Shown here in pieces: positions 13,315 to 58,617 of a DNA stretch of 58,617 nucleotides (position 1 is its first letter; each line of letters begins with the position of its first letter). The position numbers were made by a program, and so were the translations under genes. Source of the stretch: Acrocarpospora catenulata (lineage in GTDB: Bacteria > Actinomycetota > Actinomycetes > Streptosporangiales > Streptosporangiaceae). Below the pieces are notes generated by a model that ran no database searches, was not told the origin of the DNA, and saw nothing but the letters and a program-made list of their open reading frames with translations. Location: contig NZ_JAHCST010000056.1 in NCBI RefSeq assembly GCF_018476525.1, positions 1-58,617 of the forward strand, written 5' to 3'.

Positions 13315-14000
13315 CAGGCCCGCGACCTCTTGGCCACCTGGCGCAGGCGCACCGCGCGGAACACGTAGTCCAGGCCGGTAACCACGGTGACCAGCAGCGC
13401 CAGGCCGAGCGAGGTCCAGCGCGCGAACTCGGGCACCCCTGGCCAGATGTAGAGGGCGATGGCCAGGATCTGCAGCACGGTCTTGACCTTGCCGCCGTAG
13501 CTGGCGGGGATCACGCCGTGCCGGATCACCGCGAAGCGGAGCAGGGTGACGCCCAGTTCGCGGGCGATGATCACCGCGGTCACCCACCAGGCCAGCTCGC
13601 CCAGCAGGGAGAGGCAGACCAGGGCCGAGCCGATCAGCGCCTTGTCCGCGATCGGGTCGGCGATCTTGCCGAAGTCGGTGATCAGCCCGTACCTGCGGGC
13701 CAGCCAGCCGTCCAGTTGGTCGGTGATGGAGGCGACCAGGAAGACCGCCAGCGCGGCCAGGCGCCAGCCCTGGCCCTCCACGAAGAGGAAGACGATGAAG
13801 ACGGGGACGATCACCAGCCGGGCCACGGTGAGCGCGTTGGCGATGTTCCAGGTGCTCACCGGGGCGCCCGGTTCAGGTCCGGAGACGACATGGGGAGGTC
13901 CGGCCGGCACCCTGGGGGCGTCAACCTTCCTGACCTCGGTGACCTCGGCGGCCTCGGGGGCCCCCGGGATCTGCGCGGTGCGCTCGCTGCTGTCGCTCAC
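13314..14000 (-). CDS. pgsA: CDP-diacylglycerol-glycerol-3-phosphate 3-phosphatidyltransferase
   Basis: This integral membrane enzyme makes phosphatidylglycerophosphate from CDP-diacylglycerol and glycerol-3-phosphate, the first step to phosphatidylglycerol and cardiolipin. The CDP-alcohol phosphatidyltransferase motif is complete: [10 protein letters not shown], then G eight residues on, then [12 protein letters not shown]. About five membrane helices follow a 50-residue Pro/Glu-rich N-terminal extension that is longer than in most homologues. The GTG start overlaps the rimO stop (GTGA), and its stop overlaps the cinA start, so the three genes form a coupled operon. Confidence 0.93.
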
Positions 14001-15403: not shown

Positions 15404-15431
15404 GATGAAACTACGGTATCGGGTTCGACCA

Positions 15432-41136: not shown

Positions 41137-42177
41137 TCAGTCGTCAGCGCCGGCGGCAGGAACCGGCACGCGGCGGGAGCGTAGTCGCGGCCAGCCGGTA
41201 CGACGGGTACCGATCAGGCGCTGGAGCACGATGAAGACGAACAGCAGCACGCCGATGAAGATCCTCGTCCACCAGGAGCTGAGGGTGCCCTCGAAGCTGA
41301 TGATGGTCTGGATCAGGCCCAGCACCAGCACGCCCAGCACGGTGCCGAACAGGTAGCCGGTGCCGCCGGTCAGCAGGGTGCCGCCGATGACCACGGCGGC
41401 GATGGCGTCCAGTTCCATGCCGACGGCGTGCAGGCCGTACCCGGAGAGCATGTAGAAGGACAGCAGCACGCCGCCCAGGGCGGAGCAGAACCCGCTGATC
41501 GTGTACACGGCGATCTTGGTGCGGGCCACGGGCAGGCCCATGAGCAGCGCCGACTGCTCGCTGCCGCCGGTCGCGTACACGGTGCGGCCCAGGCGCGTGT
41601 AGTGCAGCACGTACGCCGCGACCAGCACCACGACGGCGCCGATCAGCACGCTGGGCGTGATCCACAGATCGGGACCCAGCGGGACGGCCGACTGCGCGAA
41701 CGTGGTGAAGGTGGGGTTGGTGATCGGGATCGAGTCGGTGCCGATGGTGTAGCAGAGCCCGCGGGCCAGGAACATGCCGGCCAGTGTGACGATGAAGGGC
41801 TGGATCTCGAAGTAGTGGATGATCGCCCCCATCCCCAGCCCGAGCACACCGCCGATGACGAGCACCAGCAGGATCACCGCGTACGCGTTCCAGCCGTCGT
41901 TCAGCAGGCTGGCGGTGATCATCGTGGACAGCGCGACCACCGAGCCCACCGACAGGTCGATGCCGCCAGCCAGGATGACGAAGGTCATGCCGACCGCGAC
42001 CACCAGCAGGAAGGCGTTGTCGATGAAGACGTTGAGGACGATCTGGCCGGTGGCGAAGCCCTGGTAGCGGATCCCGCCCGCCACGAACATGGCCACGAAC
42101 AGGCCGGCGGTCACCAGGACGGGCACATACTTGCGCGGGATCCCTGGCCACCCGGTCGGCACGGTACGGCTGGTCAC
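41137..42177 (-). CDS. CUT2 sugar ABC transporter permease (YjfF-like)
   Basis: This 346-residue ribose/galactofuranose-type permease has about eight to ten membrane segments. The family signature GGIDLSVGSVVALSTMI is present near residue 73, and a second conserved region reads GMELDAIAAVVIGGT. The GTG start at 42177 overlaps the previous permease stop (GTGA). As the last gene of a four-gene importer (binding protein, ATPase, two permeases) in an arabinose locus, it most likely moves L-arabinose, perhaps in the furanose form, as inferred from YtfQRT-YjfF. Confidence 0.92.
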   Translation of the reverse strand: MTSRTVPTGWPGIPRKYVPVLVTAGLFVAMFVAGGIRYQGFATGQIVLNVFIDNAFLLVVAVGMTFVILAGGIDLSVGSVVALSTMITASLLNDGWNAYAVILLVLVIGGVLGLGMGAIIHYFEIQPFIVTLAGMFLARGLCYTIGTDSIPITNPTFTTFAQSAVPLGPDLWITPSVLIGAVVVLVAAYVLHYTRLGRTVYATGGSEQSALLMGLPVARTKIAVYTISGFCSALGGVLLSFYMLSGYGLHAVGMELDAIAAVVIGGTLLTGGTGYLFGTVLGVLVLGLIQTIISFEGTLSSWWTRIFIGVLLFVFIVLQRLIGTRRTGWPRLRSRRVPVPAAGADD

Positions 42178-43220
42178 AGCGAGACCTTCACCTTCTTCTC
42201 GGCCACCGGGGGCGCCGTGACCGGACGTCGTCGCCGGTGGAACACCTTCTCGCGGAAGGCCGGGGACTGGAGCAGGCAGACGATGGTCACCACCAGCGCC
42301 TTGAACAGCAGCGTCGTCTCCGGCGGCACGCCGATGGAGTAGATGGTGGTGGTCAGCGTCTGGATGATGAGCGCGCCGAGCACGGTGCCGCCCAGCGAGA
42401 AGCGCCCGCCGGACAGCGAGGTGCCGCCGATGACGACGGCGAGGATGGCGTCCAGCTCGATCCACAGGCCGGCGTTGTTGCCGTCCGCGCTGGACACGTT
42501 GGAGCTGATCATCAGGCCCGCGATGCCGGCGCAGAGGCCGCAGAAGGCGTAGACCATGATGAGCACGCCCTTGGCCCCGATCCCGGCCAGGCGGCTGGCC
42601 TCGGCGTTGCCGCCGACCGACTCGATGAGCAGGCCGAGGGCCAGGCGCCGGGTGAGGAACGCGGAGATCGCCAGCACCAGGGCCACCACGATGATGCCGA
42701 AGGGCAGCGTCAGCCAGTACCCGCCGCCGACCACCTTGTACGGCGCGCTGTTGATCGTGATGATCTGGCCGTCGGTGATCAGCTGGGCCAGGCCCCGCCC
42801 GGCCACCATGAGGATCAGGGTGGCGATGATCGGCTGGATGCCCGCCCCGGCCACCAGCAGGCCGTTCCAGGCACCGAGCACCAGCGACAGGCCCAGCGCC
42901 AGGGCCATCGCGGCGAGCACGCCGCCGGTGGAGCTCTGGTCGTCCAGGAGGCTGATCCGCAGGCAGGCCAGCGCGCCCGCGATGGCCACCACCGAGCCCA
43001 CCGACAGGTCGATGCCGCCGGTGGCGATGACCAGGGTCATGCCAATCGAGACCAGGATGAGCGGCGCCCCGAACCGCGCGATGTCGATGAGGCTGCCGTA
43101 GAGGTGGCCCTCCTTGATCTCGATGGTGAAGAAGTGGTCGGTGAAGACCAGGTTGAGCAGCAGCAGTCCGGCCAGGATGACGAAGGGCCAGAACAGGCGG
43201 TGTCTCAGGAGTCGGCTCAT
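42174..43220 (-). CDS. CUT2 sugar ABC transporter permease (YtfT-like)
   Basis: This 348-residue permease is paralogous to the next gene. It has the same GGIDLSVGSVVAIAG signature and WIELDAILAVVIGGTSLSGG. The ATG at 43220 overlaps the ATPase stop (ATGA). The two different permeases form the heterodimeric channel seen in YtfT/YjfF-type systems, whereas RbsC-type systems use one. A C-terminal basic tail (HRRRRP) is cytosolic. Confidence 0.92.
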   Translation of the reverse strand: MSRLLRHRLFWPFVILAGLLLLNLVFTDHFFTIEIKEGHLYGSLIDIARFGAPLILVSIGMTLVIATGGIDLSVGSVVAIAGALACLRISLLDDQSSTGGVLAAMALALGLSLVLGAWNGLLVAGAGIQPIIATLILMVAGRGLAQLITDGQIITINSAPYKVVGGGYWLTLPFGIIVVALVLAISAFLTRRLALGLLIESVGGNAEASRLAGIGAKGVLIMVYAFCGLCAGIAGLMISSNVSSADGNNAGLWIELDAILAVVIGGTSLSGGRFSLGGTVLGALIIQTLTTTIYSIGVPPETTLLFKALVVTIVCLLQSPAFREKVFHRRRRPVTAPPVAEKKVKVSL

Positions 43221-44728
43221 GACCGGGCTCCGCTCGCGATCGTCTCGGTCAGGGTGTCGGTGGTGAGTTCCTCGTCGTTGTCCAGCTGGGAGACCACCCG
43301 GCGGTCGCGTAACACGGCGACCTTGTGGCTCAGCCGCAGCACCTCGTCCAGCTCGGCGGAGATGAACAGCACGGCCGTCCCGCCGTCGGACAGCTCGACG
43401 ACCAGGCGCTGGATCTCCGCCTTGGCGCCCACGTCGATGCCCCGGGTCGGCTCGTCCAGGATGAGCAGCCGGGGCTCCAGGATCAGCCACCGGGCCAGCA
43501 GCACCTTCTGCTGGTTGCCGCCGCTGAGATTCCTGACCAGCTGGTCCGGGTCGCCCGGGCGGATGTTGAGCGCGGCCACGTACCGCTGGACCAGCTCGTC
43601 CTGGCGGCGCCGGGGGATCGGCCTGGTCCAGCCGCGGGCGGCCTGCAACGCCAGGATGATGTTGTCCCGGACGGTGAGGTCGGGGATGAGGCCCTCGGCG
43701 CGCCGGTTCTCCGAGCAGAAGGCCAGCTTCTGCCGTATCGCGGCCCGGGGGGTGCGGAGGGAGGCCTGGGCCCCGTCCACCTTCAGTGAACCGGTGCTCG
43801 CGTGGTCGGCGCCGAACAGCAGCCGGGCGATCTCGGTACGGCCCGAGCCAAGCAACCCGGCCAGGCCGACCACCTCGCCCTGGTGGATGGTGAGCTGGAA
43901 GGGCTCGATCGCCCCGGCGCGGCCCAGATTCTCCGCCTCGATCAGGGGGGTGGTGTGCCGGACGGTGGGACGGCTCTCCAGGCGCTCCAGGTCGGCCAGT
44001 TCCCGGCCGATCATCTTGCCGACCAGCTCGACCTGAGGCAGCTCGGCGGTCCGGTACTCCCCCACCAGCCCGCCGTTGCGCAGCACGGTCACCCGGTCGG
44101 AGATCTCGTAGATCTGGTCGAGGAAGTGCGAGACGAACAGGATGGCGATGCCCTGTTCCTTCAGGCGGCGCATCACGGCGAACAGCCGCCCGACCTCGCC
44201 GGCGTCGAGGCTGGAGGTCGGCTCGTCCAGGATCAGCACCTTGGCGTCGATGTCGACGGCCCGGGCGATCGCCACCATCTGCTGGACGGCCAGCGAGTAC
44301 GTGGCCAGCTGCGCCGTCACGTCGATGTGGATGTCGAGTTGCGACAGCATCTCGACGGCGCGGTCGCGCATCACGCGCCACTGGAGCCGGCCGAACCTGC
44401 GCGGCTCCCGGCCGATGAAGATGTTCTCCGCCACCGAGAGGTTGGGGCAGAGGTTGACCTCCTGGTAGACGGTGCTGATGCCGGCGTGCTGGGCGGCCAG
44501 GGGGCTGGCGAAGTCGACCCGGCGGCCGTCGAGTTCGATGGTGCCGCCGTCGATGTCGTAGACCCCGGTCAGCACCTTGATCAGCGTGGACTTCCCGGCG
44601 CCGTTCTCGCCCATCAGCGCGTGCACCTCGCCCGGCATCAGCCGGAAGTCCACGCCGTCCAGCGCTTTGACGCCGGGAAACTGCTTCTCGATCCCGCTCA
44701 TGCGCAGGATCGGCGTGGGTGTTTCCAT
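43217..44728 (-). CDS. CUT2 sugar ABC transporter ATPase, double nucleotide-binding domain
   Basis: This 503-residue ATPase of the RbsA/AraG/YtfR type carries two fused nucleotide-binding domains. The N-terminal half has Walker A GENGAGKST (about 40-48), a degenerate signature (ATYSLAVQQMVAIARA) and Walker B VLILDEPTSSLD. The C-terminal half has a degenerate Walker A (GLLGSGRTEIARLL), signature LSGGNQQKVLLARW and Walker B LLILDEPTRGID. That asymmetric pattern is normal for the family. Unlike the two CUT1 systems in this window, this importer carries its own ATPase. Confidence 0.94.
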   Translation of the reverse strand: METPTPILRMSGIEKQFPGVKALDGVDFRLMPGEVHALMGENGAGKSTLIKVLTGVYDIDGGTIELDGRRVDFASPLAAQHAGISTVYQEVNLCPNLSVAENIFIGREPRRFGRLQWRVMRDRAVEMLSQLDIHIDVTAQLATYSLAVQQMVAIARAVDIDAKVLILDEPTSSLDAGEVGRLFAVMRRLKEQGIAILFVSHFLDQIYEISDRVTVLRNGGLVGEYRTAELPQVELVGKMIGRELADLERLESRPTVRHTTPLIEAENLGRAGAIEPFQLTIHQGEVVGLAGLLGSGRTEIARLLFGADHASTGSLKVDGAQASLRTPRAAIRQKLAFCSENRRAEGLIPDLTVRDNIILALQAARGWTRPIPRRRQDELVQRYVAALNIRPGDPDQLVRNLSGGNQQKVLLARWLILEPRLLILDEPTRGIDVGAKAEIQRLVVELSDGGTAVLFISAELDEVLRLSHKVAVLRDRRVVSQLDNDEELTTDTLTETIASGARS

Positions 44729-44786
44729 ACGGGCCCGTTCTCCTCCTGCTGGTATGTCGCGCTCGTCCTACCCGGAGAGCGCGGCT

Positions 44787-44823
44787 GCCGGGCCGCCTCG
44801 GGTCGGGGGGCAGGCGGCCCGGC
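44787..44823 (-). terminator. Attenuator hairpin between binding protein and ATPase genes
   Basis: GCCGGGCCGCCT at 44787-44798 pairs perfectly with 44812-44823. It lies in the 112-base gap after the binding-protein stop. It would lower transport-gene expression relative to the binding protein. Confidence 0.75.
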
Positions 44824-44840
44824 ATCTGCGCTGCTCAGGA

Positions 44841-45827
44841 TCAGTACTTGCGCTCGGCGAGGACCGCCTTGGCCTGCTCCTGGGTGAAGGTGGTCTCCTC
44901 GGTCACCACCCGGGCGGGCACCTGCTCACCCTTCACGACCTTCTGGGCCAGGTCCATGAGTTGGGGGCCAAGCAGCGGGCTGCACTCCACGATGTAGTTG
45001 ATCTTGCCGTCGGCCAGCGCCTGCATGCCGTCCTTGACCGCGTCGATCGTGATGATCACGATGTCCTTGCCCGGCACCTTGCCCGCGCCCTCGATGGCCT
45101 CGATGGCGCCCAGGCCCATGTCGTCGTTGTGCGCGAACAGCACGTCGATGTTCGGCGTGGACTTCAGGAACGCCTCCATGACCTCCTTGCCCTTGGCCCG
45201 GGTGAAGTCACCGGTCTGCGAGGCGGCGATCTTGAACTTGGGGTCGGACCCGATGACCTCCTGGAAGCCGGCCTTGCGGTCGTTGGCGGGCGCCGAGCCG
45301 GTGGTGCCCTGCAGTTCGACGATGGTGACCGGGTCGGTCTTGTCCTTGTACTGCTCGACCAGCCACTGACCCGCCTTGCGGCCCTCCTCCACGAAGTCCG
45401 AGCCGAGGAAGGTCTTGTAGAGGCTGGTGTCCGCGGAGTCCACCGCCCGGTCGGTCAGAATGACCGGGATGTTGGCCCGCTTCGCCTCGTTGAGCACCGG
45501 GTCCCAGCCGGACTCCACGACCGGCGAGAACGCGATGACGTCGACCTTCTGCTGGATGTAGGAGCGGATGGCCTTGATCTGGTTTTCCTGCTTCTGCTGG
45601 GCGTCGGAGAACTTCAGCTCGATGCCGGCCGCCGCCGCCGACTCCTGGACCGACTTGGTGTTGGCGGTGCGCCAGCCGCTCTCCGCCCCCACCTGGGAGA
45701 AGCCCATGACGAGCTTGTCGCCCCCGCCGGGGGCCGACGAGGCGCCGGTGTCGCCGTCGCTGCCGCATCCAGTCATGGCCATCCCGATCGCGCCGATCGC
45801 GATCAGGGCCGAGATCCTTCGGAACAC
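44841..45827 (-). CDS. CUT2 sugar-binding lipoprotein (YtfQ-like, L-arabinose type)
   Basis: This 328-residue periplasmic-binding-fold lipoprotein has the signal VFRRISALIAIGAIGMAMTGC with the Cys at about residue 21. The mature protein shows LVMGFSQVGAESGWRTANT, IRSYIQQKVDVIAFSPVVESGWD and VILTDRAVD; the first and third are characteristic of galactofuranose-binding YtfQ. I chose the GTG at 45827 because GAAGGG lies 8 bases upstream; a frame open to 45893 overlaps an operator. An L-arabinose (furanose) cargo is inferred from the surrounding arabinofuranosidases and ara genes. Confidence 0.92.
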   Translation of the reverse strand: MFRRISALIAIGAIGMAMTGCGSDGDTGASSAPGGGDKLVMGFSQVGAESGWRTANTKSVQESAAAAGIELKFSDAQQKQENQIKAIRSYIQQKVDVIAFSPVVESGWDPVLNEAKRANIPVILTDRAVDSADTSLYKTFLGSDFVEEGRKAGQWLVEQYKDKTDPVTIVELQGTTGSAPANDRKAGFQEVIGSDPKFKIAASQTGDFTRAKGKEVMEAFLKSTPNIDVLFAHNDDMGLGAIEAIEGAGKVPGKDIVIITIDAVKDGMQALADGKINYIVECSPLLGPQLMDLAQKVVKGEQVPARVVTEETTFTQEQAKAVLAERKY

Positions 45828-45845
45828 GTGGTATTCCCTTCTAAT

Positions 45846-45859
45846 TGTTAACGCTAACG
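45846..45859. promoter_or_regulatory. LacI operator before the CUT2 transporter operon
   Basis: TGTTAACGCTAACG matches 12 of 14 positions of the perfect palindrome. It lies about 19 bases upstream of the binding-protein start. Confidence 0.75.
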
Positions 45860-45911
45860 CGATACGACTTGGGCTCCCCCGATGTCTCCTCATTTATCGA
45901 CTCGGGATGAC

Positions 45912-45925
45912 TGTGAGCGTTAACA
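45912..45925. promoter_or_regulatory. LacI operator, second copy before the transporter operon
   Basis: TGTGAGCGTTAACA matches 12 of 14 positions. A weaker half-copy (TGTTAACGCGCA) follows at 45979. The remaining bases of the 315-base gap 45828-46142 hold the araA terminator and no gene. Confidence 0.7.
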
Positions 45926-46080
45926 CCACCTACCGTCAAGCCGCCGAGGGGTTACGGTCCGATCACATCGAAACCTGCTGTTAACGCGCACATGGGCATG
46001 CCGAAGCCACGCCGCGGCGGCGCGCTCGCATGCTGGGCGAACGCGCCGCATCGCGGCGGGACGGCGGGATGGCGAGGTGG

Positions 46081-46108
46081 CGGGGCGGCCCGCGCAGCGG
46101 CCGCCCCG
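46081..46108 (-). terminator. Terminator after araA
   Basis: CGGGGCGGCC at 46081-46090 pairs perfectly with 46099-46108, just downstream of the araA stop on the minus strand. Confidence 0.75.
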
Positions 46109-46142
46109 CGATGATCGGTTCAGGCTGGCGGGTGATCCCCGG

Positions 46143-47624
46143 TTACAGCCCTCCGGCCAGGCGGTGGTAGGCCTGGTTCCAGCGCAGCTCCCTGGCGAAC
46201 TGCCGCGAGGTGGTGGCGGCGTCGATGACCACGAGCTCCACGCCGAGCATCTCGGCCAGGTCGGTGAGCTCCTCGGTCCCCACGGCGGAGGTCAGCACCG
46301 TGTGGTGCGAGCCGCCCGCCATCAGCCAGGACTCCGTGGAGGTGCGCAGGTCGGGGCGGGGCCGCCAGACGGCCCTGGCCACGGGCAGGTTGGGCAGCGG
46401 CTCGGGCGGCGGCACCACGTCGATCTCGTTGGCCACCAGCCGGAGCCGGTCACCGAGATCCATCAGGCCCACCACCACGGCGGGGCCGGGCGCGGCGTCG
46501 AAGACCAGGCGCACCGGGTCCTCCTTGCCGCCGATGCTCAGCGGGTGGATCTCGCAGGACGGGGTGCCGGCCGCGATGGACGGGCAGACCTCCAGCATGT
46601 GCGCGCCGAGGATCACCTCGTTGCCCGGGGTCAGGTCGTAGGTGTAGTCCTCCATGAACGAGGAGCCGCCTGGCCGCCCCCTGCCCATCACCTTCATCGC
46701 GCGCAGCAGCACCGAGGTCTTCCAGTCGCCCTCGCCGCCGAAGCCGTACCCGTCGCCCATCAGGCGCTGGACGGCCAGGCCTGGCAGCTGCCGCAGGGCG
46801 CCGAGGTCCTCGAAGTTGGAGGTGAACGCCTGGAAGCCGCCCGCCGTCAGGAAGGTGCGCAGGCCCAGCTCGATGCGGGCCGCGTAGGTGAGCGACTCGC
46901 GGCGCTCCCCGCCGGCCACCAGCTCGGGCGCCACCCGGTAGGCGTTCTCGTACTCCTTGACCAGCTCGGCGATCTTGGTGTCCGGGACCTCGCCCATCAC
47001 CTCGACCAGCTCGTTGACGCTGTAGGTGTTCACCGAGACGCCCAGGCGCAGCTGGGCCTCGACCTTGTCGCCCTCGGTCACCGCGACGTCGCGCATGTTG
47101 TCGCCGAACCGGGCCACCTTCAGCGTGGCCAGTTCCGCCCGCCCGGCCGCGGCCCGCGCCCAGGCGCCCACCCGCTCGACGACCGAGGGGTCGCTGACGT
47201 GCCCCGCCACGGTCTTGCGGGGCACGCCCAGCCGGGACTGGACGTAACCGAACTCCCGGTCGCCGTGCGCGGCCTGGTTGAGGTTCATGAAGTCCATGTC
47301 GATGGTGGACCACGGCAGCGCCTGGTTGGCCTGGGTGTGCAGGTGCAGCAAGGGCTTGCGCAGCGCGTCCAGGCCGGCGATCCACATCTTCGCCGGGGAG
47401 AAGGTGTGCATCCAGGCGATCAGGCCGAGGCACTCGTCGTCGGCGTTGGCCGCCAGGCAGACCCGGCGGATGGACGCCGCGTCGGTGAGCACCGGCTGCC
47501 ACTCCACCTCGATCGGCAGCGCGTGGTCCAGCGCCGCCGCGATCGACTGTGACTGCTCGGCGACCTGGTTCAGGGTCTCGTCGCCGTACAGGCCCTGACT
47601 TCCGGTCAAAAACCAGATCTTCAC
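46143..47624 (-). CDS. araA: L-arabinose isomerase
   Basis: This 493-residue cytosolic Mn-dependent isomerase converts L-arabinose to L-ribulose. The family N-terminus [16 protein letters not shown] is present. Metal and catalytic residues fall in [10 protein letters not shown] (Glu), [10 protein letters not shown] (Glu), ILGAHMLEV (His) and GGSHHTVLT (His). Its length equals that of E. coli AraA. The GTG start is 3 bases after the araD stop, with GAAGGG 7 bases upstream. It is the last gene of araB-araD-araA, whose promoter carries a perfect LacI operator. Confidence 0.97.
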
Positions 47625-47627
47625 CGT

Positions 47628-48296
47628 TCAGCCCTTCTGCCCGTAAACGTTCTGATAGCGGTGGTACAGGTGATCGATGTCATCGCTCTCGATCGGGAGC
47701 GGCTCGCCCAGCTGCCGGGCCAGATGCACGGTACGGGCGACGTCCTCGCACATCACCGCGGCCTTCACCGCGGCGGTGGGGGTGGCGCCGATGGTGAAGA
47801 CGCCGTGGTTGCGCATCAGCACGGCGGGCGAGCGGTGGCCGGTCAGCACGTCCACCACGCCCCGGCCGATGTCGTCCCCGCCGATCAGCGCGAAGGGGCC
47901 GATCGGGATCTCCCCGCCGAACTCGTCGGCCATCGCGGTCAGCACGCACGGGATCGACTCGCCCCTGGCCGCCCAGGCCGAGGCGTACGCCGAGTGGGTG
48001 TGCACGACCCCGTGCACCTCCGGCATGTGGCGGTAGACGTAGGCGTGCGCCGCGGTGTCGCTGGACGGGGAGTAGTCGCCCTCCACCACCTTGCCGTCGA
48101 GATCGCAGACCACCATGGACTCGGGCGTCAACCGGTCGTAGGACACCCCGCTCGGCTTGATGACGAACAGGTCCGCGCCAGGAACCCGGCCGGAGACGTT
48201 CCCGGCCGTCCAGGCGACCAGGCCGTAGCGCACCAGCTCGGCGTGCAGGTCGCAGACGGCCTCTCGTAACTCCTTGATCGTTTTCTCCCCGATCAT
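47628..48296 (-). CDS. araD: L-ribulose-5-phosphate 4-epimerase
   Basis: This 222-residue class II aldolase-family enzyme makes D-xylulose-5-phosphate from L-ribulose-5-phosphate. Visible features are TAGNVSGRVPG, VIKPSGVSYDRL, the zinc pair in VVHTHSAYAS, VLMRNHGVFTIG with the third His, and a C-terminal HLYHRYQNVYGQ with the catalytic Tyr region. The ATG at 48296 overlaps the araB stop. The much longer open frame to 49649 is a shadow of araB. Confidence 0.95.
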   Translation of the reverse strand: MIGEKTIKELREAVCDLHAELVRYGLVAWTAGNVSGRVPGADLFVIKPSGVSYDRLTPESMVVCDLDGKVVEGDYSPSSDTAAHAYVYRHMPEVHGVVHTHSAYASAWAARGESIPCVLTAMADEFGGEIPIGPFALIGGDDIGRGVVDVLTGHRSPAVLMRNHGVFTIGATPTAAVKAAVMCEDVARTVHLARQLGEPLPIESDDIDHLYHRYQNVYGQKG

Positions 48297-49939
48297 TCGC
48301 TCGCCTCGTTTCTGATCGCGCGCAGCCGGTGCATCAGGCCGGACTCCGCGAAGTGGTCGTGCAGCAGCCGGTACTCGGCGTACAGGCGGTCGTAGGCGGC
48401 GGCCCGCTCCGGGTCGGGGACGTAGGCGCGCTGCATGCGGCCGCCCATGGCGGCCGCGGCGGCGGTGAGGTCCGGGTAGGCGCCGGCGGCCACGGCGGCG
48501 TGGATGGCCGATCCGAGCGCGGGGCCCTGGTCGGAGCCGATGACCGACAGCGGCCGGTTCAGCACGTCGCTGTAGACCTGCATGAGGAACCGGTTCTTCA
48601 GCAGCCCGCCCGCCGCGACGAACTCCGTCACCGGCACGCCGGACTGCTCGAACGTCTCGACGATCACCCGGGTGCCGAAGGCGGTGGCCTCGATCAGCGC
48701 GCGATAGACGTCCTCGGGGCGAGTGGCGAGCGTCTGCCCCACGATCAGGCCCGACAGGTCGTGGTCGACCAGGACGGAGCGGTTCCCGCTGTGCCAGTCG
48801 AGCGCGACGAGCCCGTGCGCGCCGACCCGCTGCCGCTCGGCCAGCATGCTGAGGTACTCGTGGATGTCCATGCCCCGGTCGGCGGCCTGCTGGGTGTAGG
48901 AGGCGGGCACGCCGTTGCGGACGAACCAGCCGAAGATGTCCCCCACCCCGGACTGCCCCGCCTCGTACCCCCACAGCCCGGGCACGATGCCGTCGCGGAC
49001 CACGCCGCACATGCCCGGCACCTCGGCGAGCTGGTCGGAGACCATGACATGGCACGTCGAGGTGCCCATGATGGCCACCAGCTGCCCGGGGCGCACGGCG
49101 TCGGCCGCGGCGGCGGTCACGTGCGCGTCCACGTTGCCGACGGCCACCGCGATGCCCTCGGGCAGGCGGGTCCACTCGGCGGCGCGGGCGGTCAGCCGCC
49201 CGGCGAGAGCCCCGAGCTCGGCGGTCTCCCTGGCCAGCTTGCCGGCGAACCCGGCGAAGGCGGGGTTCAGCTCCGCCAGGTAGTCGGCGGAAGGATACCG
49301 GCCGTCCTGGTAGATCCCCTTGTAGCCGGCCACGCCGACGCCGCGGGACTCGACGCCGGTGAGTTCCCAGACGATCCAGTCGGCCGCCTCGATCCACCGG
49401 TCCGCCAGGCCGTAGATCTCCGGATCCTCTTCCAGGAGTTGCAGGCCCTTGGCGAACTCCCACTCCGAGGAGATCTTGCCGCCGTACCTGGCCAGCCAGG
49501 GCTCGCCACGCTCGGCGGCCAGGGCGTTGATGCGGTCGGCGTGCGGCTGGGCGGCGTGGTGCTTCCAGAGTTTGGGCCAGGCGTGCGGCCGGTCGGGATA
49601 CGCCTCGCACAGCGGCACGCCGTCGGCCGTGGTGGGCAGGATGGTGCACGCGGTGAAGTCGGTCGAGACGCCGATCACCGACGAGGCGGGCACGCCCGCG
49701 GCGACCAGCGCCTTGGGCACCGCGACCCGCAACACGTCCCGCCAGTCCTCGGGAGACTGCAACGCCCAGTCCGGCCCGAGCCGTACGCCACCGGGTAACG
49801 CCTCCTCGAGCACGCCATGGGCGTACTCATGCACCGCGCTGCCGACTTCGGCGCCATCCGCCACCCGTACCACGACGGCCCGGCCGGAGAGCGTGCCGAA
49901 ATCGACGCCGACCACATAGCGGTCCAGTCCCGCCTGCAC
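48293..49939 (-). CDS. araB: L-ribulokinase
   Basis: This 548-residue FGGY-family kinase phosphorylates L-ribulose. It begins VVGVDFGTLSGRAVVV, the ATP-binding phosphate-1 motif. STDFTACTILPT, YGGKISSEWEFAKGLQ, VGNVDAHVTAAAADA and IMGTSTCHVM are typical of AraB. GGLLKNRFLMQVYSDVLNR is the adenosine motif (here VAAGGLLKN). The GTG at 49939 follows AAGGGAGG at 8 bases. It is first in the operon, directly behind a perfect LacI operator. Confidence 0.96.
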   Translation of the reverse strand: MQAGLDRYVVGVDFGTLSGRAVVVRVADGAEVGSAVHEYAHGVLEEALPGGVRLGPDWALQSPEDWRDVLRVAVPKALVAAGVPASSVIGVSTDFTACTILPTTADGVPLCEAYPDRPHAWPKLWKHHAAQPHADRINALAAERGEPWLARYGGKISSEWEFAKGLQLLEEDPEIYGLADRWIEAADWIVWELTGVESRGVGVAGYKGIYQDGRYPSADYLAELNPAFAGFAGKLARETAELGALAGRLTARAAEWTRLPEGIAVAVGNVDAHVTAAAADAVRPGQLVAIMGTSTCHVMVSDQLAEVPGMCGVVRDGIVPGLWGYEAGQSGVGDIFGWFVRNGVPASYTQQAADRGMDIHEYLSMLAERQRVGAHGLVALDWHSGNRSVLVDHDLSGLIVGQTLATRPEDVYRALIEATAFGTRVIVETFEQSGVPVTEFVAAGGLLKNRFLMQVYSDVLNRPLSVIGSDQGPALGSAIHAAVAAGAYPDLTAAAAAMGGRMQRAYVPDPERAAAYDRLYAEYRLLHDHFAESGLMHRLRAIRNEASE

Positions 49940-49967
49940 GACGACCGCCTCCCTTCGGTTGGTTTGC

Positions 49968-49981
49968 TGTTAGCGCTAACA
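49968..49981. promoter_or_regulatory. LacI operator of araB-araD-araA, perfect palindrome
   Basis: TGTTAGCGCTAACA, identical to the two copies before GH127, lies 29 bases upstream of the araB start. Confidence 0.87.
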
Positions 49982-50023
49982 CTTCTGCACACAACTCTGC
50001 CGGCGCGCGACCCGCCGGATTTC

Positions 50024-51058
50024 TTACCCAGGTGGAGCGCTGCTGCTGGCCCGCAGGACGAGCGTCGGGAGGATCACCATGCGCTCCGGACCCGCCGCCG
50101 ACGGCGACTCGATCCGTCGCAACAGCACCTCGATGCTGTGCCGCCCCACCGCGCCGAAGTCCTGCCGGACCGTGGTGAGCGGGGGCGTGAAGTACTCCGA
50201 CTCGGGGATGTCGTCGAAGCCGACGATGCTGACCTGCTCGGGCACCCGCACCCCCGCCTCGGCGAAGGCCCGCAGCACGCCCAGGGCCATCTGGTCGTTG
50301 GCCACGAACACCGCGGTCACCCGGCCGGGCCGCTCGGCGAGGGTGGCCAGCCGCCGCCCCGCGGCGTGCCCGGAGCGCGGGCTCCAGTCACCGCCGAGCA
50401 GTTCGGGAACCTCCCGGCCAGCGGCGGTGAGCGTACGGCGCCAGCCTTCGACGCGGCCCTCCGCCTCCAGCCAGTCCGAGGGGCCGCTGATGTGCCAGAC
50501 CGTCTCGTGGCCCAGGTCCAGCAGGTGGCTGGTGGCCAGCCGGGCGCCCTCCATCTGGTCCACGCAGATCACGGGCGTCTCGCCCTCCTGCTCCCCCTCC
50601 ACGGCCACGATGGGGATGTTCGTCGGCAGGTCGGCCAGCGCGTCGGCGGCGGACCGCTGCGGCGCCACCACCACGATGCCGTCCACGCCCTGGTCGCCCA
50701 GGTAGTCCACGGCGTCGCAGACACCGGCCCGGTCGATGGTGCGCAGGCTCACGATGCTCACGAAGTAGCCCGCCGCCCGCGCCGCCCGCTCGATGCCGTA
50801 CACGGTGCTGGCCGGGCCGTACAGCGTGGTGTCGAAGCTGACCACGCCCAGCGTGCGCGAGTGCCGGGTGACCAGGGCGCGCGCCACCATGTTCCGCCGG
50901 TAGCCCAGCCGGTCGATGGCCGCGAGCACGCGGATGCGCGTCTCCTCGCGCACGTTCGGATGCTCGTTGAGCACACGGGAGACCGTCTGATGGGACACAC
51001 CCGCCGCTCTGGCCACATCCGCCATCACAGGTGCCCGCCGCTCAGACCTGGTACCCAC
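50024..51058 (-). CDS. LacI-family repressor of the arabinose regulon
   Basis: This 344-residue LacI/GalR protein has the head VMADVARAAGVSHQTVSRVL and hinge YRRNMVARALVTRHSRTLGVV, then a ligand core with VAVEGEQEGETPVICVD and VVGFDD-type end (IVGFDDIPESEYFTPPLTTV). The GTG at 51058 follows GAGAGGAG. It lies upstream of araB in the same direction. A TGTTAGCGCTAACA-type site is found in front of itself, araB, the CUT2 transporter and GH127, so it most likely represses all of them. L-arabinose is the probable inducer (inference). Confidence 0.93.
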   Translation of the reverse strand: MGTRSERRAPVMADVARAAGVSHQTVSRVLNEHPNVREETRIRVLAAIDRLGYRRNMVARALVTRHSRTLGVVSFDTTLYGPASTVYGIERAARAAGYFVSIVSLRTIDRAGVCDAVDYLGDQGVDGIVVVAPQRSAADALADLPTNIPIVAVEGEQEGETPVICVDQMEGARLATSHLLDLGHETVWHISGPSDWLEAEGRVEGWRRTLTAAGREVPELLGGDWSPRSGHAAGRRLATLAERPGRVTAVFVANDQMALGVLRAFAEAGVRVPEQVSIVGFDDIPESEYFTPPLTTVRQDFGAVGRHSIEVLLRRIESPSAAGPERMVILPTLVLRASSSAPPG

Positions 51059-54047: not shown

Positions 54048-54515
54048 TTATCCCGCCAGAACAGCCGGAACGGCCGGGGCGCCATCGACCAGATAGCCCT
54101 TGATCACCCCGGTCAGGCCTAGGGGATACACGGTCTGGCGGGTGCTTTCGAGGTCGGCCAGATCCCACCACTGCCAGGCGAGAATGTCGTCGGTCTGGGT
54201 GGCCTTGGCCACATCGACGAGGCTGGCCGGGACACGGGCGGTGAAATACTGCTCGACCTGTTCGACCGGCTCGTCGCCGATCATGTGGGTCTTGGCGCGT
54301 GAGGCGAGCGAAGGCCCGAGTTCGACCTCGTCGACGCCGAGTTCTTCCCGCAGCTCGCGCAGTGCGGCCTCGGCGTGGGTCTCGCCGATCTCCAGGGCGC
54401 CGCCCGGGGTAGCCCAGAACACCCCTGCCCCTTCGTCGTAGCGAAGGAGCAGGACGCGGTCGTCTTGATCCAGGACGATGACGCGGGCGGCGTGGCGGCG
54501 GCGAACGGCGGTCAT
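54048..54515 (-). CDS. NUDIX hydrolase
   Basis: This 155-residue NUDIX protein has the full box GGALEIGETHAEAALREL followed by REELG, near residues 38-60, which binds Mg and hydrolyses a nucleoside diphosphate linked to another group. The N-terminus ARVIVLDQDDRVLLLRYD is the usual first strand, and WWDLADLEST is typical near the end. It lies 24 bases after the carbamoyltransferase stop in the same direction, so it may belong to that cassette, for example cleaning up a nucleotide intermediate. The substrate cannot be predicted. Confidence 0.93.
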   Translation of the reverse strand: MTAVRRRHAARVIVLDQDDRVLLLRYDEGAGVFWATPGGALEIGETHAEAALRELREELGVDEVELGPSLASRAKTHMIGDEPVEQVEQYFTARVPASLVDVAKATQTDDILAWQWWDLADLESTRQTVYPLGLTGVIKGYLVDGAPAVPAVLAG

Positions 54516-54539
54516 GCCTCCATTGTCGCAGTCTCGTCG

Positions 54540-56165
54540 TCAGGGTTGTTTCTGGACGAGGTAGTCGCCCAGGCACAAAGCGTCCAGGTCGGTGGCCTGG
54601 AAGGTGGCCAGGGCGTCGGCAGGGGTCTCGACGATGGGTTCTTGATCGTTGAAGCTCGTGTTGAGCACGACCGGCACGCCGGTGATCTTCCCGAAGTGGC
54701 CGATGAGGGCGGCGAACCGGGGATTGACGGCCGGATCGACAGTCTGGGCGCGGGCGGTTCCGTCGACGTGGACGACTCCGGGGATCTGTGCGACACGTTC
54801 GGGGCGTACGGCTGGCGCCAGCAGCATGAACGGTGATCCATCGGCGTCGAGGTCGAACCAGCGCGAGCCGTCGGCGGCGGCCACGGCGGGAGCGAAGGGC
54901 CGGAAGGGCTCGCGGTGCTTGATGCGATGGTTGAGGGCCTCACGGCTGGCGATCGTGCGCGGGTCGGCCAGGATGGAGCGGTGGCCGAGCGCGCGCGGCC
55001 CGAGCTCGCTGCCGCCTTGGAACCAGCCGATCAGTTTGCCGTCGGCAAGAAGTTGGGCCGCGGTGGCGGCGATGTCGGACTCACAGCTCCAGGTGAACGG
55101 AACGAACGCGCGTTCGACCAGGCCAGAGCGGGGGTCACGGGTCAGGGCAAGTTCGATCTCGTCGTCGGTGTAGGGGCGGCCGAAACAGTCGTCGGCCAGG
55201 GGGCGGCGCGGTAGTTCGCCGGTGAGCCGGTGCAGGCCGTACAGGGCGCAGCCGAGCGCCTGTCCGCGGTCGGATGCGGGCGGTGGGACGAACAGGCCGC
55301 CGACGGACGGCAGGCGCCGCAGGGCGTCGTTGGCAACGCAGTTGAGCGCGACCCCGCCAGCCAGGCACAGCCGAGGGGTACCGGTTTCGGCGATGACGTT
55401 CTCGACGAGCCCGGTCAGGACCTGCTGGACCTGAGTCTGCAGGTAGGCGGCCGCGTCGATGCCGCGCTGGTCGCCGCCTTTGCTGCCGGGCGGCCCGAAG
55501 TCCCAGCCGGTACGGGCGGCCAGCTCGGCCACGCCGGCGGCGTGGGTCGCGGTGAGCCGGCCGTACACGCGGGTGTCGCACAGGTCGAACAGCGGGGCGG
55601 CGAACACGCCCGAGTCGCCGTAGGAGGCCAGCGCCATGGTCTTGCCGGCCTCTTGGGCCGACCAGCCGAGGTATTCGGTGAACGCCTCATAGGTGGCGCC
55701 GATCCCGCCGGCGCGCGGGCGGGCAGGGTCGTTGCCGCCCAGGCGGGTGATGCCGTCACGGGTGGCGGCGTAGAAGGTCTCGGTGTCGGTGTTGTTGCCG
55801 GCGCCGTCGGCGACCACGATGGTGGCCTCTTCGTACGGGCCCAGGCAGTAGGCGGTGTAGGCGTGGGCAAGGTGGTGGTCGGCGATGATGATTCGCGCCG
55901 GGTCCAGGCCCAGGTGCTGCAGGCCGGTGTCGGCGGGTTGGGCAGGGGTGCGGCCGTAGGAGCTGGCGACCACCAGGTCGACGTCATCGAGCGTCAGCTC
56001 GGCGGCGCGTAGGCAGTACAGCAGGGCGTTGAGCCAGCCGGGGCTGTAGCGGCGGCGATTGAGCCGTTCCTCGCCGATCGCGATCATCCGGTCGGGGGTC
56101 ACGAGGGCGGCGCCGCCGTCGTGGCCGAAGTTGATGCCGATCACGCATGGGGCGGTACGGGACAT
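54540..56165 (-). CDS. NodU/CmcH-type O-carbamoyltransferase
   Basis: This 541-residue enzyme would transfer a carbamoyl group from carbamoyl phosphate, through carbamoyl-AMP, to a hydroxyl of a small molecule. The N-terminal Kae1-like domain shows VIGINFGHDGGAALV, metal-binding ADHHLAHAYTAY and VVADGAGNNTDTE, and LCLAGGVALNCVAN. The C-terminal YrdC-like part shows GWFQGGSELGPRALGHRSI, a family hallmark, and VVLNTSFNDQEPIVETP. I chose the ATG at 56165 (MSRTAPCVIGINFG) with GGAG 7 bases upstream. It overlaps the kinase gene by 25 bases. Family members decorate antibiotics (tobramycin, cephamycin, novobiocin types) and Nod factors; the acceptor here is unknown. Confidence 0.93.
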   Translation of the reverse strand: MSRTAPCVIGINFGHDGGAALVTPDRMIAIGEERLNRRRYSPGWLNALLYCLRAAELTLDDVDLVVASSYGRTPAQPADTGLQHLGLDPARIIIADHHLAHAYTAYCLGPYEEATIVVADGAGNNTDTETFYAATRDGITRLGGNDPARPRAGGIGATYEAFTEYLGWSAQEAGKTMALASYGDSGVFAAPLFDLCDTRVYGRLTATHAAGVAELAARTGWDFGPPGSKGGDQRGIDAAAYLQTQVQQVLTGLVENVIAETGTPRLCLAGGVALNCVANDALRRLPSVGGLFVPPPASDRGQALGCALYGLHRLTGELPRRPLADDCFGRPYTDDEIELALTRDPRSGLVERAFVPFTWSCESDIAATAAQLLADGKLIGWFQGGSELGPRALGHRSILADPRTIASREALNHRIKHREPFRPFAPAVAAADGSRWFDLDADGSPFMLLAPAVRPERVAQIPGVVHVDGTARAQTVDPAVNPRFAALIGHFGKITGVPVVLNTSFNDQEPIVETPADALATFQATDLDALCLGDYLVQKQP

Positions 56166-57019
56166 GGGATGGCTCCGCAGGGGTCGTGGGTGGGCAGCAG
56201 GTCGAAGGGATTCCACAGGCGGGTGATGCCGTCTCGGGTGTGGATGAGGCTGGCGAGCTGGAACATCTGCATCACGCCGCCGCCGCGGTGGGGGAAGGCG
56301 TCGGTGACGGTGCCGCCCAGTACGGCCGCCCCGCCGAACTGCCGGTAGAAGTCGGCGAAGCGGGCATCCACGGTGGGTGCGTGTGGGGCGGCGGGCAGGG
56401 AGGCCGGGAGGCTGGCGCCGGCCGCGCGCAGCTCGTCGGCGACGGCGGACAGCACCGCGGCCGGGGTGAGCGGGTCGGTGTCGATGATCAGCGGCGGGTT
56501 GGGGCAGAGATCGGGTGCGTGCTCGGTGTAGAACTGGCGCATCCGCTCAAGCAGCCGCGGGTCGTACCACTGCCGCCAGCGTGGATGGGCGGGTTTGCCG
56601 CCGCGGCGGGTGAGGCTGGCCGCCACGCTCACCAGCAGGATCACCGTGCGCAGCCGCGTGTCGTACAGCGGGGCGATATTCCGCCGGTAGTAGGCCACGG
56701 CTTTGCCGTAGGGGAAAGCCGCCTGGCGGCGGGCGGCGAAGGTGTAGGCCAGCACGCCCAGGTGATTGCGGTCACACACCACCACGTCGGCGGGAACGGC
56801 GCGCAGGGCTGCCGCGCGGGCCTGTTCCTGGCGCAGGTACCACAGGGTGTGCGCGGCCGGGGACGAATGGACCGGGGCCCCGGTGCCGCGGCTGAGTTTG
56901 ATGTTCGGTTCGCTGAAGAACAGGGCGGTGTCGCCGAGGCCGGGGACCAGGGCGCCGAGCAGGGTGGTTTTGCCCGCCCCGGGCGGGCCTTCGAGGGCGA
57001 GCGTGACGGGGCCGGTCAT
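56141..57019 (-). CDS. P-loop kinase (thymidylate/deoxynucleoside kinase-like) with unusual C-terminal domain
   Basis: Residues 1-205 form a P-loop kinase: Walker A LALEGPPGAGKTT at 7-19, an acidic/Arg motif VVVCDRNHLG near 79-88, and a lid-like Arg-rich stretch near residue 140 (RRGGKPAHPRWRQWY). This resembles dTMP or deoxynucleoside kinases. Residues about 215-285 read FADFYRQFGGAAVLGGTVTD, then VMQMFQLASLIHTRDGITRL and WNPFD. This looks like the repeat found in extracellular bacterial proteins with a GG-x-x-x-LG-x-P-x-T-x-x-F core and a QYFERA-like strand; I have not seen it on a cytosolic kinase. The substrate is not known. It overlaps the carbamoyltransferase by 25 bases and the oxidoreductase by 4. 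Confidence 0.75.
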   Translation of the reverse strand: MTGPVTLALEGPPGAGKTTLLGALVPGLGDTALFFSEPNIKLSRGTGAPVHSSPAAHTLWYLRQEQARAAALRAVPADVVVCDRNHLGVLAYTFAARRQAAFPYGKAVAYYRRNIAPLYDTRLRTVILLVSVAASLTRRGGKPAHPRWRQWYDPRLLERMRQFYTEHAPDLCPNPPLIIDTDPLTPAAVLSAVADELRAAGASLPASLPAAPHAPTVDARFADFYRQFGGAAVLGGTVTDAFPHRGGGVMQMFQLASLIHTRDGITRLWNPFDLLPTHDPCGAIPCPVPPHA

Positions 57020-58050
57020 CGGCTACTACCGTGAGCGGCTGCTTGGGCTCGGGGGCCGGTTTCCGGGACGGTGATCCATTCCCCGTCGCGGGCCGCCGAG
57101 GCCGCGGCGGCTGATGCGACGGCGAGGCTGCGCAGGTGGTCGGTGATGTCGTGCTCGGGCACGGTGCCGGCCGCCAGAGCCTGGGTGAAGGCGGTGTAGG
57201 CGCCGAGGATGCCGTCGGGCACCCACTCTCCGGGCGGGGTGTGGGTCTGCGGCCCGGCGGCGGTGTGGAGTGTCGCGGTGCTGTAGGTGGCCTGGGCGTC
57301 GGCCTGGTCGCCGTTGACGTACCAGGCCGACGCCCAGGCGTGCGGGGTTCGGGTGCGGTCGTACATGCTCAGGGTCGCCACCAGGGGGCTGTCAAACGCG
57401 AGCATGATCGTGTACGTGAGGGGGCAGCGGGCCGCCTGGCCGGGCAGAACACCGGCGCGGGCGGTCACGGCGACCGGGTCGGCCCCGGCCAGACGGCGAG
57501 CCAAGTCCAGGTAATGCAGGCCGTGGTCGAGGAACAGATAGCCGGGATGGTCGGTGTACCAGGTGACTTCGTCCTCGTTGAAGTGGTGCACGTGCGCCAG
57601 GTGGGCCAGCCGCCCCAGGCCGCCGCCGCGCGCCCAGTCCAGCAGGAGCCGCTGCGCGGGCGCCCAACGCAGATTGTGGTTGACCGCGACCGGCACGCCC
57701 GCCCGGGCCGCCTCATCGGCGATGGCGCGCGCCTCGTCCAAGGAGTAGGCGACGGGCTTTTGCAACAGCAGCGGCTTGCCGTACGGCAGCAACGCGCGGA
57801 CCAGGTCCAGGCGGCCGTGCGGCCGGGTCGCGACGTCGATGATCTCGACGTCCGGGTCGGCGGCGAGCTCGACGGCGCTGTCGTGGATGCGCACCCCGGG
57901 CAGGGCGCGGGCCGCCTGCTCGGCGCTGGCACGGGTGCGCGCGCAGATCGCGGCGACGGGCACGCCGCCGCTGATGTAGGCGGGCAGGTGCCCGGTGCGG
58001 ACGATCCGGCCCGCACCGATGACGCCGATCCGGGCGGGGATGGGAGTCAT
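57016..58050 (-). CDS. Gfo/Idh/MocA-family oxidoreductase
   Basis: This 344-residue NAD(P)-dependent sugar or inositol dehydrogenase family protein has a Rossmann start RIGVIGAGRIVRTGHLPAY, then VATRPHGRLDLV, the conserved catalytic Lys in LLLQKPVAYSLDEA, and GVPVAVNHNLRWAP. The second domain has HVHHFNEDEVTWY and FLDHGLHYLDLARRL with the active-site His and Asp. It is tightly coupled to its neighbours (ATGA on both sides). Together with the carbamoyltransferase and kinase it suggests modification of a sugar, cyclitol or nucleoside. Confidence 0.9.
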   Translation of the reverse strand: MTPIPARIGVIGAGRIVRTGHLPAYISGGVPVAAICARTRASAEQAARALPGVRIHDSAVELAADPDVEIIDVATRPHGRLDLVRALLPYGKPLLLQKPVAYSLDEARAIADEAARAGVPVAVNHNLRWAPAQRLLLDWARGGGLGRLAHLAHVHHFNEDEVTWYTDHPGYLFLDHGLHYLDLARRLAGADPVAVTARAGVLPGQAARCPLTYTIMLAFDSPLVATLSMYDRTRTPHAWASAWYVNGDQADAQATYSTATLHTAAGPQTHTPPGEWVPDGILGAYTAFTQALAAGTVPEHDITDHLRSLAVASAAAASAARDGEWITVPETGPRAQAAAHGSSR

Positions 58051-58617
58051 GCAACCTCCGAGGTGCTGATCGTGGTGGGCGAGGGCGGCGCCGCGGTGAC
58101 GGTGAGGTAGGCCAGCCCGTGTGCCAGCCGTTCGACGGTCTCGGCGAGACGGCCCGTTGCGCCCTCGGCCTGGCGGCCGCGCGTGTGAGCGGCCAGGCGG
58201 CCGGCGATGGCCGACCACATCCGCACTGCGGCGCCGTCGGCGCGGCCGGGAACGAGGTTGTCGTGCGTGCCGCAGGCGGTGACAGAGCCGGGGCCGGCGG
58301 GACCGTACGGGGGCGGGAAGTCCGCGGTGAGCGTCACCTGCGGGCCGGTCAGGCTCGCTTGATCGAGCCACACGCCGGCGGGCGCGGAACCGACCGTGCA
58401 TGCGATCACCGCGCCGCCCGGGGTGCGGACGCTGGCGAAAACCGTTTCCCCGTCGGCCGTGAGGGTGCAGGCCGTCGGCTGGGCGCCCGGCGCGGCCAGG
58501 GCCAGGACGGTCAGCAGGTGGTAGCCCTGCCACAGCCAGATTTCCAGAGCTCGCCGCCCGGCCGGGTTGAGCCCGGCCGGGGCCTGTTGAGGCGGGTCGT
58601 CGGCGAAGGTGTAAGGC
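58047..58617 (-). CDS. C-terminal part of a further oxidoreductase-like gene, cut by window end
   Basis: The minus-strand frame is open from position 58616 to the stop at 58047 with no interruption and has clear high-GC codon use. It reads PYTFADDPPQQAPAGLNPAG, ALEIWLWQGYHLLTVLALAA, then late VPGRADGAAVRMWSAIAG and VERLAHGLAYLTVTAA. The layout would fit the C-terminal half of another Gfo/Idh/MocA-type dehydrogenase, but the motif-bearing N-terminus is outside the window, so I leave the function open. The stop overlaps the next gene's ATG. An internal GTG at 58409 is not the real start. Confidence 0.7.
   Translation of the reverse strand, partial: PYTFADDPPQQAPAGLNPAGRRALEIWLWQGYHLLTVLALAAPGAQPTACTLTADGETVFASVRTPGGAVIACTVGSAPAGVWLDQASLTGPQVTLTADFPPPYGPAGPGSVTACGTHDNLVPGRADGAAVRMWSAIAGRLAAHTRGRQAEGATGRLAETVERLAHGLAYLTVTAAPPSPTTISTSEVA

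Follow-up and report, generated by a model that had tools for sequence, protein, structure and literature searches.

What does the compact operon at the right end of a 58,617-base stretch of the Acrocarpospora catenulata genome make? This stretch, hereafter the window, makes up contig C134 in full, in a genome of 10.29 Mb. A preliminary description had read five co-directional genes at its edge as a possible small-molecule cluster without a described counterpart, whose enzymes would act on a sugar, cyclitol or nucleoside by oxidation, phosphorylation and carbamoylation. All five genes are present on the minus strand at 54048–58617. They encode the 3′ part of a Gfo/Idh/MocA-type oxidoreductase (GfoA; 58047..58617), a second Gfo/Idh/MocA oxidoreductase (GfoB; 57016..58050), a kinase with a thymidylate-kinase/deoxynucleoside-kinase fold and a conserved C-terminal extension (KIN; 56141..57019), a 541-aa TobZ/CmcH/NodU-type O-carbamoyltransferase (CAR; 54540..56165) and a 155-aa NUDIX hydrolase (NUD; 54048..54515). 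Overlaps had been claimed throughout, and we found them at three junctions (4 bases at GfoA/GfoB, 4 at GfoB/KIN and 25 at KIN/CAR), with a 24-base gap at the last one, CAR/NUD.

Base 58617 is the contig end, and the prediction that more genes lie past it proved correct. The right end of C134 matches the end of contig C78 (167,565 bases) over 63 exact bases (58555..58617), an assembly overlap rather than a biological feature, and among the 13 genome matches listed none besides C78 covers those bases. Reading across the overlap yields an uninterrupted GfoA of 358 aa, the rest of which lies on C78 (L009:19432-20000, plus strand), followed upstream by a TIM-barrel isomerase-like protein (TIM; AP_endonuc_2, 300 aa), an archaeal-type methionine adenosyltransferase (MAT; AdoMet_Synthase, PF01941, 413 aa), a GT2 glycosyltransferase (GT2; 317 aa) and, beside GT2, a gene in divergent orientation for an NsdA-family regulator (309.5 bits, cut-off 75). 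We consider the join supported because the open frame continues across it and relatives show the same gene order. The complete cassette comprises eight genes over about 8.2 kb. Of the gene types to be looked for on the right, a glycosyltransferase was found in GT2, but there is no aminotransferase among the eight genes and no conserved transporter or recognised resistance gene. GT2, TIM, the regulator and the archaeal-type MAT all lie outside the window and hence had been missed; above all, it is the MAT that changes the question posed by the locus.

The catalytic motifs of the cassette proteins are largely kept. The window part of GfoA by itself matches no Pfam or NCBIfam family, and the profile of its relatives matches the sugar 3-ketoreductase 3rbv. 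GfoB (PF01408, 62.6 bits; PF22725, 42.6 bits) has the inositol 2-dehydrogenase 4hkt as its best PDB match and myo_inos_iolG as its top NCBIfam match, at 74.5 bits and so short of the cut-off of 355. For TIM, the best-named PDB relative is IolI, and each of four metal-site motifs is found in 24–26 of 26 sequences. Relatives of these three kinds, IolI, inositol 2-dehydrogenase and sugar 3-ketoreductase, fit a keto-based remodelling; here we take the roles of IolI, KijD10 and NsdA to be those generally ascribed to them. GT2 carries no additional domain in Pfam.

KIN had been called a nucleoside-kinase-like P-loop protein; the kinase assignment and the P-loop stand, and the protein is better named after its thymidylate-kinase/deoxynucleoside-kinase fold. 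The match to a nucleoside/nucleotide kinase of TMP-kinase fold covers residues 2–203, the window protein falls into none of the NCBIfam families, the dTMP kinase equivalog included, and the C-terminal extension matches no Pfam family in any of four pieces. CAR is a predicted O-carbamoyltransferase with both expected domains, Carbam_trans_N (PF02543, 105.4 bits, cut-off 24) and Carbam_trans_C (PF16861, 216.8 bits, cut-off 27), and its best PDB match is TobZ, an enzyme that acts through a carbamoyl-adenylate. The motif HHL[SA]HA is present in all 19 aligned rows (the narrower HH.AHA in 5 of 27) and corresponds to HHxxHA, which we take to be the metal motif of the Kae1-like domain. CAR thus shares both Pfam domains and this motif with TobZ, CmcH and NodU and yet forms a separate subfamily within that type: the window protein is 63–84% identical to CAR of other cassettes and 57% to that of a sister cluster (G138), and at most 38.6% to proteins of other plasmid records (among the best 18 of 323 matched). 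Besides this CAR, the sister cluster encodes a GT2 and a kinase, of 37% and 27% identity, as well as NUDIX and cytidine-deaminase-like proteins. In NUD (PF00293, 71.1 bits), the NUDIX box GX5EX7REUXEEXGU is found in 25 of 27 cassette proteins, the misses being L043 and L050.

The preliminary description had allowed that this gene order might be conserved nowhere else, and we found the opposite. A genome-collection scan with the kinase alignment returned 17 loci (Sphaerimonospora, Microtetraspora, three Actinomadura, Streptosporangium, Actinocorallia, eight Streptomyces, Frankia and a Micromonosporaceae MAG), and every one holds a seven-gene core in the same order, GT2-MAT-TIM-GfoA-KIN-CAR-NUD. 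GfoB is also present in six of these loci and absent from 11, and appears as an accessory gene of some Streptosporangiales versions. Within the order, a kinase search of 297 genomes gave 14 matches at E 0.001, ten of them strong including our own; eight of the other nine strong loci carry the whole core in order, and the ninth (G191, L028) is reduced to KIN-CAR-NUD with stumps of GfoB and the regulator. In the class, the kinase was found at E 1e-20 in four of 394 genomes, own included, with the full core at all three other loci. Three class kinase matches contain two TGA codons, which we put down to the match overrunning the gene end; the full-locus class matches contain none. Two Streptomyces plasmids also bear the cassette. 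Once genomes seen twice are removed, the core is syntenic in 23 distinct loci (the 17 above, the window, G054, G223, G735 and the two plasmids), spread over Streptosporangiales, Streptomyces, Frankia and Micromonosporaceae. The kinase was not found in the three congeners searched, which marks the cassette as an accessory unit.

Incomplete copies occur as well. At E 1e-120, CAR was detected in 14 of the 297 order genomes: our own, eight full cassettes, one sister cluster and four remnants, namely L028, L109 (CAR-NUD only, in open frames), L110 (NUD and a CAR split into three fragments that are out of frame with one another) and L111 (the 3′ half of CAR and a NUDIX). Remnants were sought through CAR or KIN, so that copies with the 5′ genes alone could escape, but a MAT search of the 297 order genomes revealed no remnant keeping only these genes. 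As the remnants keep CAR-NUD or KIN-CAR-NUD alone, these genes may have a separate role. Fuller loci can be interrupted as well: GT2 of L034 is cut by a contig end (row omitted from A6), GfoA of L046 is in two pieces (row omitted from A5), and CAR of L036 has an in-frame stop. Elsewhere the genes overlap or almost touch in most loci, with intergenic spacing mostly between −10 and +50 bases. Distance matrices of the genes correlate at 0.855–0.965 over 21 gene pairs and 19 loci (L034, L036, L046 and G735 omitted), and as the comparison had no outside control gene these values show shared descent, not more. Across five locus pairs, dN/dS was 0.08–0.42 in 36 valid comparisons, a 37th (L036 CAR, 1.886) being excluded as an artefact of the in-frame stop; the MAT had the lowest value in every pair but one, in one case by a margin of just 0.001. 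The cassette is a patchily distributed, well-conserved unit under purifying selection.

The NsdA-family regulator lies directly upstream, in divergent orientation, in 16 of 22 loci, and is the sole flanking family in more than nine of the 22. By place and strand, the next two families by count are frames antisense to the regulator, followed by an HTH family in six of 22 loci. In Actinomadura (L036, L037 and L039) another family occupies the regulator position, an HTH protein in both cases tested. We rejected a wider cluster on the grounds that the regulator is the only widely conserved flanking family, in flanks that are short near contig ends.

What, then, is the MAT doing in this operon? The protein is a clear member of PF01941 (347.1 bits, cut-off 27) that misses the NCBIfam cut-offs (314.6 against 481 and 307.8 against 435 bits). 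The host genome encodes one bacterial MetK (PF02773) and one archaeal-type MAT, that of the cassette, and the cassette itself encodes no methyltransferase. We mapped by alignment seven SAM contacts outside the lid that are named in PMC8727953 and PMC3853416, and all seven (H28, H57, N59, N174, D214, Y285 and D297, two of which hold the methionine carboxylate) are invariant in 16 of 16 rows of the cassette type, type A. With these contacts kept, the cassette MAT in all likelihood still transfers an adenosyl group to an alpha-amino acid. The lid itself is different. In the Thermococcus enzyme it supplies residues that touch the adenine and the methionine side chain (PMC3853416). The lid segment spans 36–37 residues in type A, 34 in type B, 35 in type D and 25–27 in type C, against 16–18 in 13 reference archaeal-type MATs from other actinobacteria, which may not be housekeeping enzymes themselves (four of four reference genomes checked also have a bacterial MetK); the lid is likewise short in aligned MATs of solved structure from Pyrococcus, Thermococcus, Methanocaldococcus and Sulfolobus. 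The type-A lid is therefore about 20 residues longer and does not qualify as short. Long lids of types A, B and D carry SPG and WF.P motifs, and the equivalent in type A of the Asp-Leu pair through which the short lid makes its adenine and side-chain contacts is not placeable by sequence.

Among 396 phylum genomes only our own has a cassette-like MAT; another 24 gave matches, but these genomes measure 0.8–2.9 Mb and encode MATs of at most 43% identity. An archaeal-type MAT was found in 35 of the 297 order genomes, with identity of at least 68% in ten, of 46–49% in eight and lower in the remainder. We read 11 of 12 non-cassette neighbourhoods (all but L136, of 3,580 bases), G234 and G262 being the two of the eight genomes at 46–49% left out of this reading. 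In five of that group the MAT stands in a common operon, type B (MAT-APH-His phosphatase-SerRS-GT4-unknown), in which APH is a kinase, the His phosphatase is present in all loci but one and none of the annotated genes is a methyltransferase. Four members of the lower-identity group, type C, have the MAT near a second GluRS (two GluRS over the cut-off in four of four), and in three of the four a gene that we read as a hydrolase adjoins it, the one tested belonging to the STM4013 family below its cut-off. In type D (G118), the MAT lies with myo-inositol-1-phosphate synthase, a TIM barrel of marginal likeness to cassette TIM (E 0.012), APH kinases, an SDR and an aminotransferase. The coexistence of MAT and MetK extends beyond the cassette: all of another 13 genomes that encode a MAT and were checked for MetK have one, namely G227, five of type B, two of type C, one of type D and four reference genomes.

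One genome connects the cassette with type B. G227 has a type-B operon whose APH, SerRS, GT4 and unknown protein are 40–66% identical to those of L128 and in which no His phosphatase was found; as in the five type-B genomes, the SerRS is a second copy (two over the cut-off in six of six tested). Its MAT, on the other hand, is of type A, with 70–71% identity to that of the window versus 50% to that of L128, and in the tree it falls within the type-A clade, next to a Streptosporangium sequence, with support 100/93 (the tree flags long branches in types C and D and one reference row, whose deep placement we did not use). Of six type-B genes, only MAT was matched in ten type-A loci tested. Most simply read, a MAT moved between two operons that have none of the other tested genes in common, and its product can serve in either; a cassette-type MAT in the G227 operon suggests that type-A and type-B MATs provide a common SAM or SAM-like building block, possibly a scaffold.

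No described cluster that we found in open full texts accounts for the cassette. A parallel by gene type is offered by puromycin-type actinomycete nucleoside clusters (puromycin, A201A and cystocin; pur, ata and cst), which pair the NAD-dependent nucleotide dehydrogenase Pur10 with the NUDIX protein Pur7 (PMC11641026). The cassette likewise has oxidoreductases and a NUDIX hydrolase but is without a methyltransferase, an aminotransferase and an aminoacyl-nucleoside synthetase, and adds MAT, GT2, the TIM barrel, the kinase and the carbamoyltransferase; with both the aminotransferase and the synthetase missing from the eight genes, we rejected a puromycin-type aminonucleoside cluster. An aminoglycoside or aminocyclitol cluster was rejected likewise, there being no aminotransferase with a cyclitol-forming enzyme among the eight genes and no widely conserved flank besides the regulator. 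Inositol catabolism resembles the cassette in that TIM and GfoB have IolI and IolG, respectively, among their best profile matches, but no other iol-type gene occurs among the eight, and an iol locus was rejected on the IolG score of 74.5 against 355 bits. Searches of open PMC full texts gave no description of such a cassette and no cluster of known type that it matched, subscription literature lying outside their scope. We read the cassette as an orphan biosynthetic operon whose product is undescribed in the literature searched; the earlier interpretation of the locus is in this sense partly supported, its orphan small-molecule cluster with the proposed oxidation, phosphorylation and carbamoylation being the part that stands.

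Specifically, we give a probability of about one half to a biosynthetic operon that is complete in itself and yields a polar metabolite, glycosylated, O-carbamoylated and phosphorylated and most likely nucleoside-derived. MAT would supply SAM or a SAM-like adenosyl unit, and GT2 would add a sugar taken from a donor of primary metabolism. GfoA may generate a ketone at a ring carbon, the putatively metal-dependent TIM barrel move or epimerise the adjacent centre, and GfoA, or GfoB if present, re-reduce the ketone in an overall redox-neutral remodelling. CAR would place a carbamoyl group on a hydroxyl, KIN would phosphorylate a nucleoside-like intermediate, and NUD would cleave a phosphoanhydride for maturation or self-protection. 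The nucleoside-type reading is favoured by the nucleoside/nucleotide kinase fold of KIN, by the cytidine-deaminase-like protein in the G138 sister cluster, and by the precedent of the Pur10/Pur7 pairing (PMC11641026). Pur7 is also the precedent for the clean-up role proposed earlier for the NUDIX enzyme, which NUD may share. Against the proposed operon counts the conserved set, with neither a transporter nor a recognised resistance gene.

The same relatives of TIM and GfoB point equally to cyclitols, which speaks against a nucleoside acceptor. GfoB, TIM and GfoA could convert myo-inositol to another inositol that is then glycosylated, phosphorylated and carbamoylated, as in an aminoglycoside-like pathway, with MAT only boosting SAM for enzymes elsewhere. 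The PDB matches to IolI and inositol 2-dehydrogenase and the top NCBIfam match of GfoB agree with such a route, as does the order genome G118, in which a long-lid MAT adjoins myo-inositol-1-phosphate synthase and a TIM barrel, next to APH kinases and an aminotransferase. We nevertheless regard it as possible but doubtful, given that GfoB is missing from 11 of the 17 collection-scan cassettes and falls short of the IolG cut-off, that KIN has a nucleotide-kinase fold, and that the eight genes include no aminotransferase. Alternatively, the MAT could be a resistant target duplicate in an operon whose product inhibits bacterial MetK or blocks the use of SAM. Its occurrence beside a single MetK without any methyltransferase in the operon, its low dN/dS and its apparent swap between two operon types, which implies a generic role, would all suit this, as would the second SerRS or GluRS copies near type-B and type-C MATs, since extra aminoacyl-tRNA synthetases can be resistance copies. 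The four remnants, however, keep CAR-NUD or KIN-CAR-NUD and not MAT, and the plain alternative of extra SAM supply for enzymes encoded elsewhere accounts for the same facts, so that we hold a resistance duplicate to be unlikely.

A function outside secondary metabolism, as a cell-surface glycan modifier or a nucleotide-based defence operon, would agree with the patchy distribution, the plasmid copies and the presence of GT2 and CAR, as GT2 enzymes and NodU-type carbamoyltransferases also decorate lipo-oligosaccharides. GT2 here has no extra Pfam domain, no flanking family besides the regulator is widely conserved, and PADLOC matched the NUDIX protein alone, weakly, among the eight proteins given (GfoA left out), on which basis anti-phage defence was rejected; we judge any such function decidedly improbable. 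The fragments that stand alone in some genomes (L028, L109, L110 and L111) could recall a chance or decayed assembly of unrelated genes, but 23 distinct syntenic loci under purifying selection make this vanishingly improbable, and conserved synteny refutes a chance assembly.

A further reading of the putative nucleoside-type operon concerns the MAT product itself. The cassette and the type-B operon both combine a long-lid MAT with a kinase, a glycosyltransferase, a phosphohydrolase (in four of five type-B loci) and an adenylate-forming acyl enzyme, SerRS working via seryl-adenylate. Tentatively, and against the odds as we see them, SAM or an analogue made by the long-lid MAT may donate no methyl group and instead form the scaffold on which the product is built, with the two operons as two branches of a so far undescribed adenosyl-sulfonium natural-product family: an interchangeable MAT would give the core, to which a sugar, a phosphate and an adenylate-delivered acyl group (carbamoyl in the cassette, seryl in type B) would be added. 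If so, these molecules would act in nature as antimetabolites against methyltransferases or SAM sensors.

Compact, complete and recurrent (at least 23 sequenced loci have the core), the cassette lends itself to heterologous expression. If long-lid MATs make plain SAM, the retention of one beside MetK by two unrelated operons that lack a methyltransferase needs explaining; if they make something else, they would mark a hidden class of actinomycete adenosyl-sulfonium metabolites. Either outcome informs the annotation of archaeal-type MATs in actinomycete genomes.

Within the window, the stretch at 42174–51058 carries genes resembling those for a sugar ABC transporter, an L-arabinose isomerase, an aldolase and a kinase, together with a LacI-type regulator, and from its translations it would be an ordinary arabinose-use operon. 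In L009, the stretch of contig C78 that joins the window end and carries the 5′ genes of the cassette, small orphan genes at 10954–14723 separate a normal region from the cassette; the first reads as caspase-like, their third-position GC is low (0.65–0.76), and they were possibly acquired recently. The cassette kinase bears a C-terminal extension (window 56144–56410) with conserved GG and RGG..Q..QL motifs, which gave no match in a Pfam search.

The O-carbamoyltransferase (CAR) and NUDIX genes also occur without the rest of the cassette, with both frames open, in L109 (G196:C6:136500–156000) at 8264–10366, where the neighbors read as NRPS, MFS and methyltransferase genes, suggesting that the pair can serve a role of its own. 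A sister cluster, L053 (G138:C11, 7218–19153), encodes a 57% identical CAR along with GT2, kinase, NUDIX, cytidine-deaminase-like, GT4-APH fusion, NTP_transf_5, transketolase-half and PhyH genes.

Archaeal-type methionine adenosyltransferases (MATs) were found in several further settings. The conserved type-B operon (L128, 8792–14983; also L129, L130, L131 and L132) has the order MAT-APH kinase-(His phosphatase)-second SerRS-GT4-unknown 336-aa protein, with no methyltransferase among its annotated genes, and our literature search of open PMC full texts found no published description of it. In L126 (G227:C1:81500–101000, 9209–15815), an operon otherwise of type B contains a cassette-type MAT (type A), an apparent replacement of this single gene. 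A long-lid MAT lies in L127 (G118:C7, 1669–12981), possibly an orphan aminocyclitol locus, beside myo-inositol-1-phosphate synthase-like, TIM barrel, two APH kinase, SDR, class III aminotransferase and NUDIX genes. Short-lid MATs are present in small-genome actinobacteria (L058–L070, including genomes G433, G390, G379 and G629); all four tested also have bacterial MetK and thus a MAT besides the short-lid one. Finally, type-C MATs lie near 9–10 kb in L133, L134, L135 and L137, each near a second GluRS, and in 4/4 aligned rows the methionine-carboxylate ligands His and Asn are replaced by Asn and Trp; it seems likely that the substrate of these enzymes differs.
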